From positions 1 to 5,039 of the forward strand of contig JACQZL010000198.1 of NCBI GenBank assembly GCA_016213865.1: DNA of 5,039 bases. Reading direction: 5' to 3'. Below are positions 1 through 5,039 of the stretch, in pieces. Below the pieces are notes generated by a model, which saw only the letters and a program-made list of their open reading frames with translations, ran no database searches and was not told the origin of the DNA. This DNA is from Candidatus Rifleibacteriota bacterium. Lineage in GTDB: Bacteria > UBP17 > UBA6191 > JACPRK01. Within the stretch, counting starts at the first letter, position 1; every line of letters starts with the position of its first letter. The position numbers were made by a program, and so were the translations under genes.

Positions 1-179
1 ACGTACGGCGTCGGCGTAAAGGACATGGACGATCAGCACAAGAAGCTCTTTGCTTTGATCAACGACTACTACGAGGCGATCACGCAAAAGAAGGCCAAGG
101 AGGCCGTCGCGGCGCTCCTCCAGGGCCTGCTGGGCTATGTCCGGTACCACTTCGGCGACGAAGAGCGGCTCATCTTCAA
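1..179 (+). pseudogene. Bacteriohemerythrin fragment, cut by the transposon
   Basis: Reading from base 1 in frame 1, the translation begins TYGVGVKDMDDQHKKLF and ends RYHFGDEERLIFN. The DxQH motif (His at residue 13 of the fragment) and the HFxxEE motif (His50, Glu54) are the first metal ligands of the hemerythrin fold, a four-helix bundle that binds O2 at a di-iron centre in the cytoplasm or in signalling proteins. The family is usually about 130 residues. The later HxxxH and HxxxxD ligands are missing because the sequence enters the transposon after about 60 codons. The frame then runs on through element DNA to a stop at 301-303. The start lies upstream of the window, so it cannot be said whether this was a stand-alone protein or the end domain of a larger one. 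The missing ligands make loss of function very likely. Confidence 0.85.
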
Positions 180-223
180 TGCCGGTGGTCCACTTGATGC
201 CGTTGCCGGGAGGTGGCCCCCAC
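180..223 (+). repeat. Left terminal inverted repeat with two GGTGG-type subrepeats
   Basis: The outer part (180-209) matches the reverse complement of 4651-4680 at 22 of 30 positions, including an unbroken CGGTGGTCCA. Within this end the motif recurs: GGTGGTCCAC at 184-193 and GGTGGCCCCCAC at 212-223, 28 bp apart. Spaced repeats at each end are the known arrangement of transposase-binding sites in IS21-type elements; that these are IstA sites is inference. Confidence 0.75.
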
Positions 224-701
224 CCAGGTTCGATCATTGGGGGTGTGGAAGACTCGACCGTGCTGCATCTGTCATCGGTGGTTCCGGCCTGATGGTCGCG
301 TAGGGGCGCGCCAGCGCGCCTGCGGCGGCGAGTGCCGTGCGAAGCTCCGGAAGAAGACGCAGGCCGCGTGGCGGCGGCGCAATCCCGACTATTTCCGGGA
401 ACGACGACTCAGCGCCCGCTTTGAGGTGGCGCGTGAGGCCGCGAAGCCCTCGAAGCTAGGCGGTGAGCGTCCGCGGCGCCCTCCGCCGCTGCGGGTGAAC
501 GACCGTTTGGGCGAAGTTCCCTGGGATCTCGCGCAAGACGAGATCGGGGTCCAAGTCACTGATTTCATTGCGACAGCAGCGAAAGTAGTCCTGCGGGCCG
601 CGCAAGACGAGATCGCCCGTCAAGTCGCTGAGCGGCCGAAGGATCGGCAGAGAGTTCCCCCACCGGTCGGGCAAGACGAGATCCGGGCTGCGTCACCCTG
701 A
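213..701 (+). CDS. Zinc-ribbon accessory protein of the transposon with QDEI repeats
   Basis: This 162-residue basic protein starts at GTG 213 in the longest reading. GTG 243 is an equally likely start, because 213 falls inside the left terminal repeat and neither has a good ribosome site. Residues 17-41 hold Cys17-x2-Cys20 and Cys37-x3-Cys41 around a WFRPD segment and RQRAC. This is the layout of small bacterial zinc ribbons of the CxxC..F.P..RQ..C...CR kind. A basic segment with RRNPDYFRERR follows. The distal half carries QDEI at residues 108, 131 and 154, each from the same 13-bp DNA motif. The role is not known to me; the zinc ribbon and basic segment suggest DNA binding, perhaps at the element ends (inference). 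I recall similar small proteins next to IS21-type transposases but cannot verify this here. The conserved zinc ribbon supports real coding; the distal half could instead be DNA binding sites that happen to be open. Confidence 0.6.
   Translation: MAPTQVRSLGVWKTRPCCICHRWFRPDGRVGARQRACGGECRAKLRKKTQAAWRRRNPDYFRERRLSARFEVAREAAKPSKLGGERPRRPPPLRVNDRLGEVPWDLAQDEIGVQVTDFIATAAKVVLRAAQDEIARQVAERPKDRQRVPPPVGQDEIRAASP
533..683 (+). repeat. Three GCAAGACGAGATC repeats at an exact 69-bp period
   Basis: Identical 13-mers lie at 533-545, 602-614 and 671-683. The distance between starts is 69 bp both times, which keeps the reading frame (23 codons). The first two copies also share a downstream caagtc-n-ctga block (551-561 and 620-630). 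The rest of each unit is unalike, so this is not a fresh tandem duplication. Each copy encodes QDEI in the zinc-ribbon frame. They may be protein repeats, DNA sites for an element-encoded protein, or both. Confidence 0.8.
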
Positions 702-739
702 GGCTGGGTGCGACGCCACTTGTCAAGAGCGCGCCGCCT

Positions 740-747
740 GGAGGAGG
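740..747 (+). promoter_or_regulatory. Ribosome binding site GGAGGAGG of the DUF669-like gene
   Basis: GGAGGAGG ends six bases before ATG 754. It is among the strongest Shine-Dalgarno matches in the window and fixes 754 as the start. No convincing promoter hexamers were found upstream, so the transcription start is not known. Confidence 0.75.
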
Positions 748-753
748 AACGCG

Positions 754-1146
754 ATGCCCGGCCCCATCGTCCGCTTCGATCAGCACTCGATCGAGGCCGT
801 GATCCCCGACGAAGGCGCCTACCCCGCCTTCGTCCACTCCGTGAAAGAGCGCGTCTCGGAGCGTGGCAACGCCACGATCCAGGTTGTCTACGACGTGCTC
901 GACGTGGACCCGGCCTGGGACCGGGTCAGCGAGTACTTCGTGGTCTCCTGCCTGAACCCTCGCGCGGTAGCCATTGGCCAGCGACGGTTGTTCTCGCTGT
1001 GCCGGGCCTGCGGCCTGGTGCCCGGTGAGGGGGACGAAGTCGATCTCGGCCAACTCGTCGGGCGCGGGCTCGAGCTGCGCCTGGGACACGAGACCTTCGA
1101 GCAGCGCACGCGCCTGCGCGTGCTGGCTCACCACCGCCAGCCGTGA
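754..1146 (+). CDS. DUF669-like putative single-stranded-DNA-binding protein
   Basis: This is a complete 130-residue protein with a strong ribosome site. Its pattern resembles the phage DUF669 family: an early YPAFVHSVKERVSERGNA strand-turn segment (residues 23-40), a beta strand TIQVVYDVLD (41-50), YFVVSCLNPRAV (61-72), a helix QRRLFSLCRACGL (76-88), and EVDLGQLVGRGLELRLGHET (95-114) in place of the usual DLxxLxGKxxxV. DUF669 members are often found among phage recombination and replication genes and are thought to act as OB-fold ssDNA-binding proteins; the assignment here rests on pattern memory only. The stop overlaps the GTG of the ParB-like gene as GTGA, which points to coupled translation. 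It is unexpected in an IS21-type element. A role in protecting or annealing DNA during transposition is a guess. Confidence 0.6.
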   Translation: MPGPIVRFDQHSIEAVIPDEGAYPAFVHSVKERVSERGNATIQVVYDVLDVDPAWDRVSEYFVVSCLNPRAVAIGQRRLFSLCRACGLVPGEGDEVDLGQLVGRGLELRLGHETFEQRTRLRVLAHHRQP

Positions 1147-2420
1147 GTGCCGAGGTGGACGAGGCCAACGGCGTGCCGGATGTGCGCTGGCTCGACGTGG
1201 AGAGCCTGCGCACGAGTCTGGCCACGCTGCGCTCGAGCGCAGCGCCGCCGCCGCAAGGCGCACCCATCCTCGCCGAGATGCCGCTGCGGGTCGCGGCGCG
1301 GGAGGACGGCTGCTTCGAAGTCGTGGACGGCTTCAAGCGCCTGGCGCACTGGATGACGGCGGGCCAGCGTCAGGTCCCCGTCCTTGTCGAGCAGACCTCT
1401 TCCTCGCTCGAGCACAAGCTCCTGCTCCTGCGCGCCAATGCGCCTCCGCGCCGCACGACGGCCATGGACGAGGCCCGCGTGGTCGACTCGCTCGTCTCGG
1501 AGGACAACCTGAGCGAGAAGGCCGTGGCACGGCGAATCGGCCGCCGGCCCGCCTGGGTCTCACGACGGCGCCTCCTGGTGCGGCGCTTGGCACCGATCCT
1601 CCAGGGCCAGCTCGACCACGGCCAGATCGGCCCCTCCGTCGCCTACGCGCTTTGCGCTTTGCCCCACAAGGAGCAGGAAGCGCTCCAGCACGCCGCGGAA
1701 CGAGACGGTCTGAGCACGCAGGAGAGCCTGGCCCTGATCTCGACCTTCCGCTCCGCCACCCCGAGCGAGCGCGCCGGGCTGCTGGCTCAGCCACTCCACA
1801 GCGTACGCCCCGACCCGCCTCGCCCCACCCTCGGGCCCCTCTGCGTCCGACTCGAGGAACGTCTCCGCCGCATCACGCAGACCCTGCACGATCTGGCCTC
1901 GTTCGAAATCCCACCCGAGGGGCTCTCCCCGGCCGAACGCCGGCGCCTCGAAAGCCAGCACCGGGCTGCGCTCGATCTGCTGACCCGAACCGCACAAGCC
2001 ATCGCTGTCCCCACAAGGGCGGCATTAACCGGCGACACACAGGAGGAAGAAGACGATGAACGACAAGAACCACAAGATCCCGATGCCGAACGAAGAGAGC
2101 CCGCCGCAGGCGGAGCCGACCCCGGAAGAGACGGTGCCCCCGAGCGAACCGCCGCCGACTTCGCGAACGCTCAGTCCCCAGGAGCGGCAGCAGATCCTCG
2201 AGCTGTACCAACGCTGTGGGTCGATACGGAGGACGACCTGCGCGGTGGGCCACGACCGCAAGACGGTCCGCCGAGTCCTGGAGGAGGAAGGAGTAACGAT
2301 TGCGCCCCCTGGCCCCGCAACCACCAACCGGGCGAGCAAGCTCGACCCCTTCCGCGAGACCGTTCGCGAGAAGGTCGCTCAGAGGCTCACCCTCACACGC
2401 GTCCTGCGGGAGATCCGTGA
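1143..2420 (+). CDS. ParB/KorB-like DNA-binding protein encoded upstream of istA
   Basis: The 425-residue frame starts with GTG 1143, inside the GTGA overlap with the gene before it. No clear ribosome site is seen, so coupled translation is likely. Residues 13-85 resemble the ParB N-terminal domain, with FEVVDGFKRLAHW (58-70) in the place of the ParB DGxRRLxA motif. Residues 100-170 look like the ParB/KorB helical DNA-binding region, with LSEKAVARRIGRRPAWVSRRR (123-143) as the helix-turn-helix. ParB-type proteins bind specific sites in plasmid and chromosome partition or act as regulators. No ParA-like gene is present in the window, so a regulatory or site-binding role within the element is more likely than partition. 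From residue 305 the gene overlaps istA in another frame; that tail is rich in Pro, Arg, Glu and Gly and looks disordered. Its codons there lack the G/C third-position bias that the istA frame keeps, so the tail may not be under selection. Confidence 0.7.
   Translation: MSAEVDEANGVPDVRWLDVESLRTSLATLRSSAAPPPQGAPILAEMPLRVAAREDGCFEVVDGFKRLAHWMTAGQRQVPVLVEQTSSSLEHKLLLLRANAPPRRTTAMDEARVVDSLVSEDNLSEKAVARRIGRRPAWVSRRRLLVRRLAPILQGQLDHGQIGPSVAYALCALPHKEQEALQHAAERDGLSTQESLALISTFRSATPSERAGLLAQPLHSVRPDPPRPTLGPLCVRLEERLRRITQTLHDLASFEIPPEGLSPAERRRLESQHRAALDLLTRTAQAIAVPTRAALTGDTQEEEDDERQEPQDPDAERREPAAGGADPGRDGAPERTAADFANAQSPGAAADPRAVPTLWVDTEDDLRGGPRPQDGPPSPGGGRSNDCAPWPRNHQPGEQARPLPRDRSREGRSEAHPHTRPAGDP
2041..2046 (+). 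promoter_or_regulatory. Ribosome binding site AGGAGG of istA
   Basis: AGGAGG lies nine bases before ATG 2056. A TAA in the istA frame at 2026-2028 rules out a longer istA or an in-frame fusion with upstream sequence, so 2056 is the first possible ATG. The site lies inside the ParB-like reading frame. Confidence 0.75.
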
Positions 2421-3762
2421 GCAGGGCTACCAGGGCAGCCGCACCATCCTCGCCGACTACGTCCGTACCCTGCCGGGCACGCCCGCACCGGGGGTGGCCA
2501 AGCGGCGCTTCGAGACACCGCCCGGTGAGGAACTGCAGGTCGACTGGTCGATCTTCACCGTGATGATCGCGGGCGTGCTCTGCTGCGTGCACGCCCTGGG
2601 CTGCGTGCTCGCGTACTCGCGCTACCTGCACCTGCGCTTCTACCGCAATGAGCGCCAGTCCACGCTGCTCGAGGGACTCGCCCGGGCCTTCGAAGACATG
2701 GGCGGTGTCGCCCTCCGTCTGGTCTTCGACAACATGGCCACCGTCGTCCTCGGACGCGTCGGGAGGAACCGGACCGTCCTCTGGCATCCCCGACTGCTCG
2801 ACTTCGCACGCCACTATGCCTTCGAGCCCTTTGCATGCCGCGTGCGGCATCCCGATCGGAAGGGTAAGGACGAAAGGGTTTTTGACTTCCTAGAAAAAGA
2901 CCTCCTGCGCGGATCCTCGTTCGCGAGCTTCGAGGATCTCAACGCCCGCGCGGAGACCTGGACCACAACCATCGCCAACCGTCGCGTCCACGGCACCACC
3001 CGCCGCGTCCCCGCCGAGGCTTGGCTGGCCGAGCGTGACTTCCTGGTACGACTCCCCGAGGCCCGCTTCGGCGTCCACGAGGACTCCATGCGCCAGGTCG
3101 GCCCCGATGCCACCGTCTCGATCGCAGGGACCCTCTACACCGTCCCCCATCACCTCGCCGGCCGCTCCGTCGCCGTCCGGCTCTACGCCGAGCACTTCGA
3201 GGTCCTCGACCGCCAGGGACGTGTCGCCTTGTCCCGCCGCTACGTCGCCGACGAGGACAAGGGCAAGCTTCAGATCGACCCCACTCATTATCTGGGCCTG
3301 CCCCATGGCCCTCGTGGTGGGGGCGGCGAGGGAGGTTCCGGCGCATCCGCGCTGGACCAGGCCCTCCTCAAGCGCTTCCCGTCCCTGGCACCTCTGGTCG
3401 AGGGCATCACCGTGCGCATGAAGTCGCTTGCGCACATCCACCTCAAGGCCCTGTGGCGGCTCGCCGAAACCCACGGCGACGCGCACTTCCTGGCCGCCGC
3501 CACCCGCGCCCAGGACTACCGCCGCTACAGCGCCCAGGCCGTCGGCCGCATCCTCGATCGCATCGATCCGCTGCCCGCCGAGCCGCCACTCCCCGTCGAT
3601 GCGGCCACTCGCGCCCGCGCCACCCTGGGGGAAGTCGATCCCGGCTCGCTCGATCAATACGGCCACCTCGATACCACCACGCCGTCCCAGACGTCCTCGG
3701 ACCCGAACCACTCCTCTGCGCAAGAGACCGTCTCCCAGGAGGACAGCGATGAAGAGGCGTGA
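2056..3762 (+). CDS. istA: IS21-type DDE transposase IstA
   Basis: This complete 568-residue protein catalyses DNA cleavage and strand transfer of the element. Residues 1-38 are an acidic, proline-rich leader. A helix-turn-helix of the IS21 kind follows at about 40-78 (LSPQERQQILELYQ, then HDRKTVRRVL). The RNase H-like core has the expected triad: Asp163 in LQVDWS, Asp225 in LVFDNM and Glu273 in KGKDER. A beta-barrel-like region at about 345-400 (VSIAGTLYTVP) agrees with the family. A glycine-rich stretch (421-429) separates this from a helical region, and the last 40 residues are acidic and Ser/Thr-rich. IstA proteins are usually about 400-510 residues, so this one is long through its two tails. 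The intact triad suggests activity. It overlaps the ParB-like gene by 365 nt and istB by 14 nt. The strand around Glu273 is locally A/T-rich compared with the rest of the gene. Confidence 0.92.
   Translation: MNDKNHKIPMPNEESPPQAEPTPEETVPPSEPPPTSRTLSPQERQQILELYQRCGSIRRTTCAVGHDRKTVRRVLEEEGVTIAPPGPATTNRASKLDPFRETVREKVAQRLTLTRVLREIREQGYQGSRTILADYVRTLPGTPAPGVAKRRFETPPGEELQVDWSIFTVMIAGVLCCVHALGCVLAYSRYLHLRFYRNERQSTLLEGLARAFEDMGGVALRLVFDNMATVVLGRVGRNRTVLWHPRLLDFARHYAFEPFACRVRHPDRKGKDERVFDFLEKDLLRGSSFASFEDLNARAETWTTTIANRRVHGTTRRVPAEAWLAERDFLVRLPEARFGVHEDSMRQVGPDATVSIAGTLYTVPHHLAGRSVAVRLYAEHFEVLDRQGRVALSRRYVADEDKGKLQIDPTHYLGLPHGPRGGGGEGGSGASALDQALLKRFPSLAPLVEGITVRMKSLAHIHLKALWRLAETHGDAHFLAAATRAQDYRRYSAQAVGRILDRIDPLPAEPPLPVDAATRARATLGEVDPGSLDQYGHLDTTTPSQTSSDPNHSSAQETVSQEDSDEEA
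3737..3742 (+). promoter_or_regulatory. Ribosome binding site AGGAGG of istB
   Basis: AGGAGG ends six bases before ATG 3749 and lies in the last codons of istA. It sets the istB start at 3749 rather than at the earlier in-frame ATG 3428, which would place over 320 bases inside istA. Confidence 0.8.
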
Positions 3763-4525
3763 CCCCCCGGACCCGCCCTCGCCCGACGACCTGATGCGCA
3801 TGGCCGAAGAACTCGATCTGACCGCACTGCGCGACGCTCTGGGCGATTTGCTCGCCCACGCCGAACAAGCCAGCCCGTCCTATACCGACTTCGCTCTCCG
3901 CCTGCTGAGCACTGAGTGGGCGGCCCGCCAGGAACGCAAGCTCACGCGCGGCCTCAAGCGCTCGCGCATCGGAACCGTCGAGGGCATTGACAGCTTCGAC
4001 TTCGCGGCCCGACCCCAACTCGAGCCTCGTGTCGTCAAGGAGCTCCTCAACTGCCGCTTCCTCGACGAGAAGCGGAACATCATCTGCGTCGGCCGGCCCG
4101 GCCTGGGCAAGACACGCATCGCCAAGGCCATCGCACACGCCGCCTGTCTCCGCGGGTATTCGACCCTCTTCACGATCACTTCAGAGATGCTCGAGGACAT
4201 CCACGCCTCGCTCGCCGACGGCACCTTCAAGCGCGCCCTGCGCCGCTACACCAAGCCCTCGCTCGTCGTCCTGGACGAGCTGGGCTACGAGGGCTTCGAT
4301 CGCCAGATGGCCACCTACCTCTTTCGTGTCGTTTCCGCACGACACGGCGTCAGCTCCACAATCGTCACCGCCAACACCGGCTTCTCGAAGTGGGCCAGCT
4401 TCTTCCCTTCGGAGGCCGAGTCCATCGCCACTGTCGACCGCCTCGTCGATCGCGCCACCGTCTTGCGGTTCACGGGCAAGAGCTTCCGGAACCCGAAGGA
4501 AGTCCTCGGCGCACCGCTCGACTGA
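3749..4525 (+). CDS. istB: IS21-type AAA+ ATPase IstB, transposition helper
   Basis: This 258-residue protein is a normal length for IstB. Residues 1-75 are the helical N-terminal part, with SYTDFALRLLSTEWAARQERK typical of the family. The AAA+ core has a Walker A motif GRPGLGKT (115-122, with Lys121 and Thr122), a Walker B motif SLVVLDELGY (171-180, with Asp176 and Glu177), a sensor-1 segment around TANTGFSKW (207-215, Asn209), and RLVDRATVLRFTGKSFR (231-247), which holds the expected arginine finger region. IstB forms ATP-dependent oligomers on DNA, remodels the target and recruits IstA, much as TnsC and MuB do for their transposases. It starts 14 nt before the istA stop with its own ribosome site, so it is co-translated with istA. 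All key residues are present and the gene appears functional. Confidence 0.93.
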   Translation: MKRRDPPDPPSPDDLMRMAEELDLTALRDALGDLLAHAEQASPSYTDFALRLLSTEWAARQERKLTRGLKRSRIGTVEGIDSFDFAARPQLEPRVVKELLNCRFLDEKRNIICVGRPGLGKTRIAKAIAHAACLRGYSTLFTITSEMLEDIHASLADGTFKRALRRYTKPSLVVLDELGYEGFDRQMATYLFRVVSARHGVSSTIVTANTGFSKWASFFPSEAESIATVDRLVDRATVLRFTGKSFRNPKEVLGAPLD

Positions 4526-4533
4526 TTGTCCCG

Positions 4534-4565
4534 GGGGCGGAGAGACGACACCGTCTCTTCGCCCC
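4534..4565 (+). terminator. Strong hairpin just after istB, possible terminator
   Basis: The arms GGGGCGGAGAGACG (4534-4547) and CGTCTCTTCGCCCC (4552-4565) pair over 14 positions with one G-U pair and an ACAC tetraloop. The left arm begins nine bases after the istB stop. A run of C, not T, follows, so this is not a classical intrinsic terminator. It could end or protect the operon's 3' end, or block transcription entering the element from the right flank. Confidence 0.6.
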
Positions 4566-4638
4566 GCCCCCCCGACAACAGATCCTTCTCGTCCCGTGGC
4601 AGCGATCGCCGCCGCTCACCGGCGCGCGTGCCTGATGA

Positions 4639-4680
4639 GTCCACCACTGACCGGCAAACGGGCCCACTGGACCACCGTCA
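4639..4680 (-). repeat. Right terminal inverted repeat with two subrepeats
   Basis: Read inward on the - strand it starts TGACGGTGGTCCAGTGGG, matching the left end at 22 of 30 positions over 4651-4680. An inner GTGGTGGAC (reverse strand of 4639-4647) lies about 28-31 bp from the outer GGTGGTCCA (4668-4676), mirroring the spacing at the left end. About 110 bases between istB and this repeat (4526-4638) hold only the hairpin. Confidence 0.75.
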
Positions 4681-4892
4681 ATGAGAATGTGGGGGCTACC
4701 GATCAGTTGGCCAGGCGCTAGGACATCTTCGACGAAGGCGGGCGTCGCGATGAGCACAACTCCTCCCCTGAGATAGGTGACGATTCGTGGCTCATTCTCC
4801 TGCGGAAGCTCAGATACGAGCGATCGCAGCTGCGGCCCGTCCGGCATTCCATGCCGCAGCTCGCGAAAGAAACCCACCCTCTTGAGTTTCAC
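4681..4892 (-). pseudogene. Immunity protein gene of a polymorphic toxin, truncated by the transposon
   Basis: The gene starts at GTG 4892-4890, which shares one base with the TAG stop of the toxin gene before it (TAGTG). The protein begins VKLKRVGFFRELRHGMPDGP and continues through NEPRIVTYLRGGVVLIATPAF to GSPHILI, where host sequence meets the element. From memory, this matches a family of small cytoplasmic immunity proteins with the pattern RVGFFREL.HG.P.GP, then IV.YL..G....A.P, and a later ILTDG.W.WP.DL segment. Only about 70 residues remain and the W.WP.DL part is lost. The frame runs on through the element, antisense to istB, to a stop at 4470-4472, giving a 140-residue chimera. An immunity protein of this kind would bind and block its cognate toxin. 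The truncation probably abolishes function. The family name or number was not assigned. Confidence 0.7.
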
Positions 4893-5039
4893 TACTTCTT
4901 CCCAGGCGTAAAGACTCGCCACGCGCCCGTGTTTGCGTCGGCGGTCGGTCCAATCGTGAGCGTACCGTCGCGGTGGATCCACAAGGTGTCGGTCGGAGCG
5001 GTCACGTTTGCACCAAGCTTATTCGCCAGGTTCTGAGCG
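4892..5039 (-). CDS. C-terminal end of a polymorphic toxin (partial)
   Basis: The last 48 codons and the TAG stop of a gene entering from the right edge of the window. The peptide holds NLANKLGANVTAPTDTLWIH, then DGTLTIGPT, NTGAWRVF and a closing TPGKK. From memory, the LAN.LG..V.APTDTLWIH..G..TIGPT...NTG.WR.F.PG pattern is the typical tail of secreted Rhs/YD-type or related polymorphic toxins. The position just before a small immunity-like gene fits the known toxin-immunity order. The enzyme activity cannot be told from this piece. Whether the upstream toxin body is intact lies outside the window. Confidence 0.65.
   Translation of the reverse strand, partial: AQNLANKLGANVTAPTDTLWIHRDGTLTIGPTADANTGAWRVFTPGKK

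Follow-up and report, generated by a model that had tools for sequence, protein, structure and literature searches.

The window, that is, the whole 5,039-nucleotide stretch of DNA that was analysed (contig JACQZL010000198.1 of assembly GCA_016213865.1, Candidatus Rifleibacteriota bacterium), contains an IS21-type element at positions 174-4685 with five genes, for a putative zinc-binding protein (Z), a protein resembling DUF669 (D), one of ParB/Noc-like type (P), the transposase IstA and the helper ATPase IstB. Comparison with its relatives suggests, with about an even chance of being right as a whole, that it belongs to a lineage of IS21-type transposons with a P-istA-istB core, which is combined with an exchangeable regulatory cassette made up of the Z gene and an array of direct repeats. 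An earlier note on this DNA had placed istA and istB, together with genes for a zinc protein, a DUF669-like and a ParB-like protein, inside one pair of terminal repeats, and this was confirmed. Both IstA and IstB scored above their NCBIfam cut-offs, the terminal inverted repeats paired at 18 of 22 bases, and istB followed directly after istA with a 14-nt overlap. As three further genes lie between the ends, the element is termed an IS21 variant; the gene content of istA and istB only, from which it departs, comes from the description of the family with two open reading frames in PMC10122671 and is not a criterion of the NCBIfam models.

An alignment of P led to 13 loci in named genome contigs, with P directly 5' of istA in 11 of them and no istA within the locus in the other two (L012 and L013). 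Searches with IstA covered 247, 246, 235, 201 and 249 genomes from five phyla and, with the IstA of a relative (L077), 227 and 396 further genomes; the best 4-7 candidates per genome were scored and the best 30 loci per search retained, the neighbours being chosen for their similarity to the IstA of the window or of L077. These searches returned 185 distinct IstA stretches (fragments included), 41 of them with P, which represent 40 elements, the broken istA of L001 having been counted twice (L001, L033). A length of at least 330 aa, and 700 bp of upstream sequence for those without P, was required for entry into the tree; this left 140 rows, or 127 after the removal of 13 that were long-branched or near-identical, and a careful tree was built from the 36 rows with P and 60 drawn at random from the 91 without. 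A single branch split the two groups (ultrafast bootstrap 98, SH-aLRT 92) and was found in 97% of 200 bootstrap trees. An earlier quick tree had placed P in 29/29 rows inside the clade versus 0/106 outside. The identities of P and IstA rose together across element pairs (rho 0.87), and genes of the P lineage overlap istA. Eight phyla were named for the lineage (Acidobacteria, Eisenbacteria, Myxococcota, Chloroflexota, Thermodesulfobacteriota, Planctomycetota, Bacillota and Elusimicrobia), single assignments among which may be wrong because most come from metagenome bins. From these sequence comparisons, P is very probably a core component of the lineage, and it probably acts with IstA and IstB.

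That the accessory genes are chance passengers of one IS21 lineage is improbable. Plain istA-istB elements made up the majority of the sample and, among the 41 P rows, Z was found in 22 and D in only three, as would suit such an explanation; set against it are the presence of P in 36/36 tree rows of the clade and in eight named phyla, its co-variation with IstA and its overlap with istA, by which passengers were already disfavoured for P. The earlier note had grouped the three extra genes into one accessory module, a reading that gained partial support, and proposed a tree of IstA as a check: the tie of P to the IstA clade stood, while Z and D were not constant within it. The closest plain plasmid elements (L014-L017) had no P. 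No match to the window P was found among 72,556 plasmid records, nor to that of L077, and the search of plasmids with the L077 IstA gave one P element, on pHRM2a (L212). Six stretches of viral contigs fitted the search pattern, none of which encodes a relative.

That the genes form one mobile unit was seen from the target duplications, which enclosed Z, P, istA and istB in six relatives (Table 1). Target duplications of the IS21 family range from 4 to 8 bp. The L077 genome contains another copy of its element, which matches the first at every position over 3894 bp and has no such duplication; none was found in the window copy either, and TCAATG was rejected as a target duplication. On the left (1-173) the insertion breaks a hemerythrin gene fragment, and on the right (4686-5039) another frame, which runs on the minus strand; with two different genes or frames cut, one on each side, the flanks do not form a single empty site. 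The end search took only ends starting with CT, and also returned chance duplications of 5-6 bp at poor ends in L002, L006, L008, L009 and L238. The pHRM2a element, of 4737 bp, additionally carries a CHC2 zinc-finger gene (PF01807, above cut-off), a DnaG-type zinc-ribbon gene located 3' of istB (L212 6245-6781) within the 8-bp duplication.

Table 1. Features of the window element and target duplications of its relatives
Feature	Position	Strand	Remarks
Whole element	174..4685	+	4512 bp; end placement by analogy with relatives
Left terminal inverted repeat	174..196	+	CTTCAATGCCGGTGGTCCACTTG
Z, putative zinc-binding protein	213..701	+	no Pfam family
Array site 1	533..545	+	GCAAGACGAGATC
Array site 2	602..614	+	GCAAGACGAGATC; 69 bp from site 1
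Array site 3	671..683	+	GCAAGACGAGATC; 69 bp from site 2
D, DUF669-like	754..1146	+	predicted OB fold like PrgE of pCF10
P, ParB/Noc-like	1143..2057	+	DGFKR replaces GERR; frame open on to 2420
istA, DDE transposase, IS21 family	2056..3762	+	NCBIfam NF033546, 247.6 bits, cut-off 160
istB, AAA+ helper ATPase	3749..4525	+	NCBIfam NF038214, 206.4 bits, cut-off 200
Right terminal inverted repeat	4663..4685	-	CTCATTGACGGTGGTCCAGTGGG (minus-strand reading)
L212 (pHRM2a)			8 bp target duplication
L229			8 bp target duplication
L077			7 bp target duplication
L230			7 bp target duplication
L228			5 bp target duplication; weak taken alone
L078			4 bp target duplication; weak taken alone

The AlphaFold2 model of P (mean pLDDT 83.5) contained a ParB N domain and a helix-turn-helix domain, with Noc and ParB as its best structural neighbours, and a sequence profile search with P matched Noc at E 8.9e-13. 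The GERR CTPase motif with its catalytic Glu was not retained: an aromatic residue (F or Y) stood at the Glu position in 37/41 rows, within a motif DG[F/Y]KR whose other positions were D in 37, G in 40, K in 30 and R in 39. Alignment with Myxococcus xanthus ParB (7o0n) placed a Phe of P at the position of E93, which lies in GERR; the E93A substitution causes a CTP hydrolysis defect according to PMC9178275. Two P-profile matches remote from any istA (L087, L089) were cellular ParB-like and kept GERR, so that the two motifs separate the P of elements from cellular ParB. As its CTP motif is without the hydrolytic Glu, P may form a clamp that does not hydrolyse CTP, or may simply bind a specific DNA sequence. 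The core would comprise three genes rather than two, P joining IstA and IstB in transposition as a DNA binder of ParB/Noc fold, whether in end or target handling or in DNA marking.

It is unlikely, by comparison, that P is a partition or nucleoid-occlusion protein which stabilises a replicon or represses the operon and has no direct role in transposition. Its fold and sequence are like those of ParB, Noc and KorB, the last of which is a repressor; P differs from all three in having DG[F/Y]KR for GERR and no adjoining parA, no ParA match being found among the five window genes in a Pfam scan. Furthermore, a chromosomally integrated transposon needs no partition, the array sequence (see below) does not follow P, and P co-varies with IstA. 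As a separate observation, the P frame continued without a stop far into istA in the subclade of the window (window 2056-2420), over 358 nt in L005 (p 0.005 versus synonymous shuffles), 487 nt in L011 (0/200 shuffles), 298 nt in L002 (0.03) and 271 nt in the window (0.24), which is possibly an overlapping coding region or an effect of GC content. Two tandem P-like genes lie 5' of istA in L005 (1096-2885), and two P-like matches in the same position in L238 may be one broken gene.

The proposed cassette is located after the left end and ahead of the first core gene. The Z proteins have four Cys and a Gln in common; against solved structures the best row for Z was a lectin (E 0.0067), outside the Cys region and taken as chance. 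In the window, three identical 13-mers follow one another in 69-bp steps at the end of the Z gene. Exact repeats of at least 11 bp at 69 bp were found 5' of istA in 7/30 P elements, in 3/9 elements with Z or a putative winged-helix protein (W) and without P, and in 2/99 plain elements. When scored for three copies, the real sequence exceeded all 20 shuffles in 21 of 26 Z elements (spacings of 55-105 bp searched). Within the P set (60-95 bp searched, six P rows with too little left flank being left out), shuffles were exceeded by 19/22 elements with Z versus 0/13 without (Fisher 3.8e-7), the 19 being 18 plus L005, in which the array precedes the first of the two P copies and had its score from the separate Z-element test. 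A score of at least 29 was reached by 16/22 elements with Z, none of the 13 P elements without Z, 5/95 plain upstream windows and 5/163 coding windows; at 31 or more, these counts were 9, 0, 2 and 0, respectively.

The 48 spacings in 24 arrays were clustered, with 32 at 68-71 bp, eight at 78-79, five at 88-90 and three others. One explanation considered was that the C-terminal part of Z contains a repeated peptide, the repeats being its by-product rather than DNA sites, given that the window repeats are all in the Z frame, encode AQDEI, AQDEI and GQDEI, and are 69 bp apart, a number divisible by three. This is very improbable, as spacings of 68, 70, 79, 88 and 89 bp break the Z reading frame, in L138 and L042 the third copy lies 3' of the stop codon of Z, and L005 and L212 share a motif although the aligned C-terminal parts of their Z proteins are almost without identity. 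The clustered, frame-breaking spacings and the copies beyond the Z stop point instead to DNA sites placed by helical turns, and the three sites would lie on one face of the DNA. The array motif followed the Z domain (partial rho 0.49 given IstA and 0.60 given P, p 0.0005 in both cases) and, given Z, followed neither IstA (-0.07) nor P (-0.10). A swap of the cassette was seen between L236 and L235, whose alignment (75% over 2994 columns) begins at the predicted start codon of P, with nothing alignable upstream. It is fairly likely that Z binds the array.

Z would then bind sites overlapping the end of its own gene, 5' of the operon, and so repress or gate the element, and exchange of the cassette would confer a new specificity, as in phage immunity regions. 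In those of Mu/D108 and the lambdoid phages, a regulator gene and its cognate sites are exchanged as one block between similar elements, as Z and the array are here. Alternatively, the array may serve to enhance transposition from within the element, in the manner of the internal activation sequence of Mu, as a site on which Z and transposase build a transpososome, regulation being secondary. This is a possible but less likely explanation. The array does sit inside the left end and ahead of the transposase genes, and spacing steps of about one helical turn fit a looped or wrapped complex. The relation of IstA to MuA, stated in PMC10293859, would also fit. On the other hand, 13 P elements are without Z and array, and an unrelated Z and array are found in elements whose IstA, IstB and P are 78% identical, which is easier to account for if the cassette has no need to contact IstA. 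Because the Z-array block is freely exchanged, regulation is favoured over a direct structural role, with the choice of operator over enhancer evenly balanced.

Several observations weigh against the cassette and core as proposed. The array test was noisy, two of the 26 Z elements being tied with shuffles (L076, L117) and three below them (L036, L053, L081), and L004, L036 and L221 had Z and no array in the P-set test. The association of motif and Z could be linkage alone, because the array is within or next to the Z gene, and the argument for a binder draws only on the likeness of the three copies within an element, for which the arrays were selected. Free exchange speaks against tight IstA contact, yet is no proof of repression, and a scan of the window showed no sigma-70-like promoter close to the array, a null result that neither supports nor excludes regulation by Z. 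As for P, the earlier note had held that homologues without the accessory genes would mark these as passengers; no P-less IstA was found in the clade tree, but three partial IstA remnants of the lineage (L211, L031, L044) had no P in view, and the sampled genomes may miss intact members lacking P.

Other roles for the array were rejected. Folding z-scores of the repeat unit were mostly between -1 and +1 (lowest -2.4), and no RNA element is claimed; a ParB site was set aside as the repeat sequence does not track P and occurs without it (L034, L041, L148, L120); and a place for the array within the transposase ends was rejected for the window, where the 13-mer was never found elsewhere with fewer than three mismatches. 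By eye, the 69-bp units (window 518-700) share weaker blocks in several elements, CAAGTC..TGATT 3' of the sites and ACTTCCC 5'. Four IS21 elements without P (L034, L041, L148, L053) have Z and W 5' of istA, with a clear 69-bp array of TGCGTTACAAGAT type in the first three and no clear one in L053. In L076 (reverse strand), terminal repeats GCTCTCCAGAATCGGC at 1317 and 1386 are likewise 69 bp apart, with a sequence unlike that of the internal array. Four plain IS21 loci (L188, L165, L130, L040) had high-scoring spaced repeats or 69-bp spacing upstream; that of L188 looked CRISPR-repeat-like by eye, and the others are without explanation.

The element resembles IS21 and IS5376 in its overlapping istA-istB, in terminal inverted repeats with repeated inner sites and in the 4-8 bp target duplications of its relatives, and differs in that the lineage adds P throughout the clade, plus Z and array, D, or W. 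With the Tn7-like and Mu systems (TnsB/TnsC/TniQ, MuA/MuB) it shares a transposase, an AAA+ helper and further DNA-binding proteins in a modular accessory logic, although no TniQ/TnsD-like Pfam match was found in the six window frames scanned. PADLOC matched IstB alone in the window, best to DrmD. No description of P or Z with IS21 was found by the literature searches made; an unpublished or paywalled account may exist. Among transposases that depend on an AAA+ helper, IS21 is the smallest model and, according to PMC10293859, no target selector had been reported for it. If correct, an obligate ParB-like partner across many phyla would add to this model a third protein open to testing and connect the ParB clamp fold with transposition, and an exchangeable regulator with its array of sites would be a rare instance of an insertion-sequence family that switches specificity in the way phages do. 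A bolder and doubtful reading is that IstA-IstB form a three-protein transposition machine with the ParB-like, non-hydrolysing clamp, which would be their missing factor for recognising targets or self, with phage-like heteroimmunity in which swappable zinc-repressor cassettes and helically phased operator triplets decide which related elements share a cell.

D may be an optional single-stranded DNA-binding helper. Its alignments to PrgE (pCF10) and DUF669 proteins showed at most 12% identity, and its score against Pfam DUF669 (PF05037) was 19.9 bits, under the cut-off of 21; several D homologues bear a precomputed PF05037 label.
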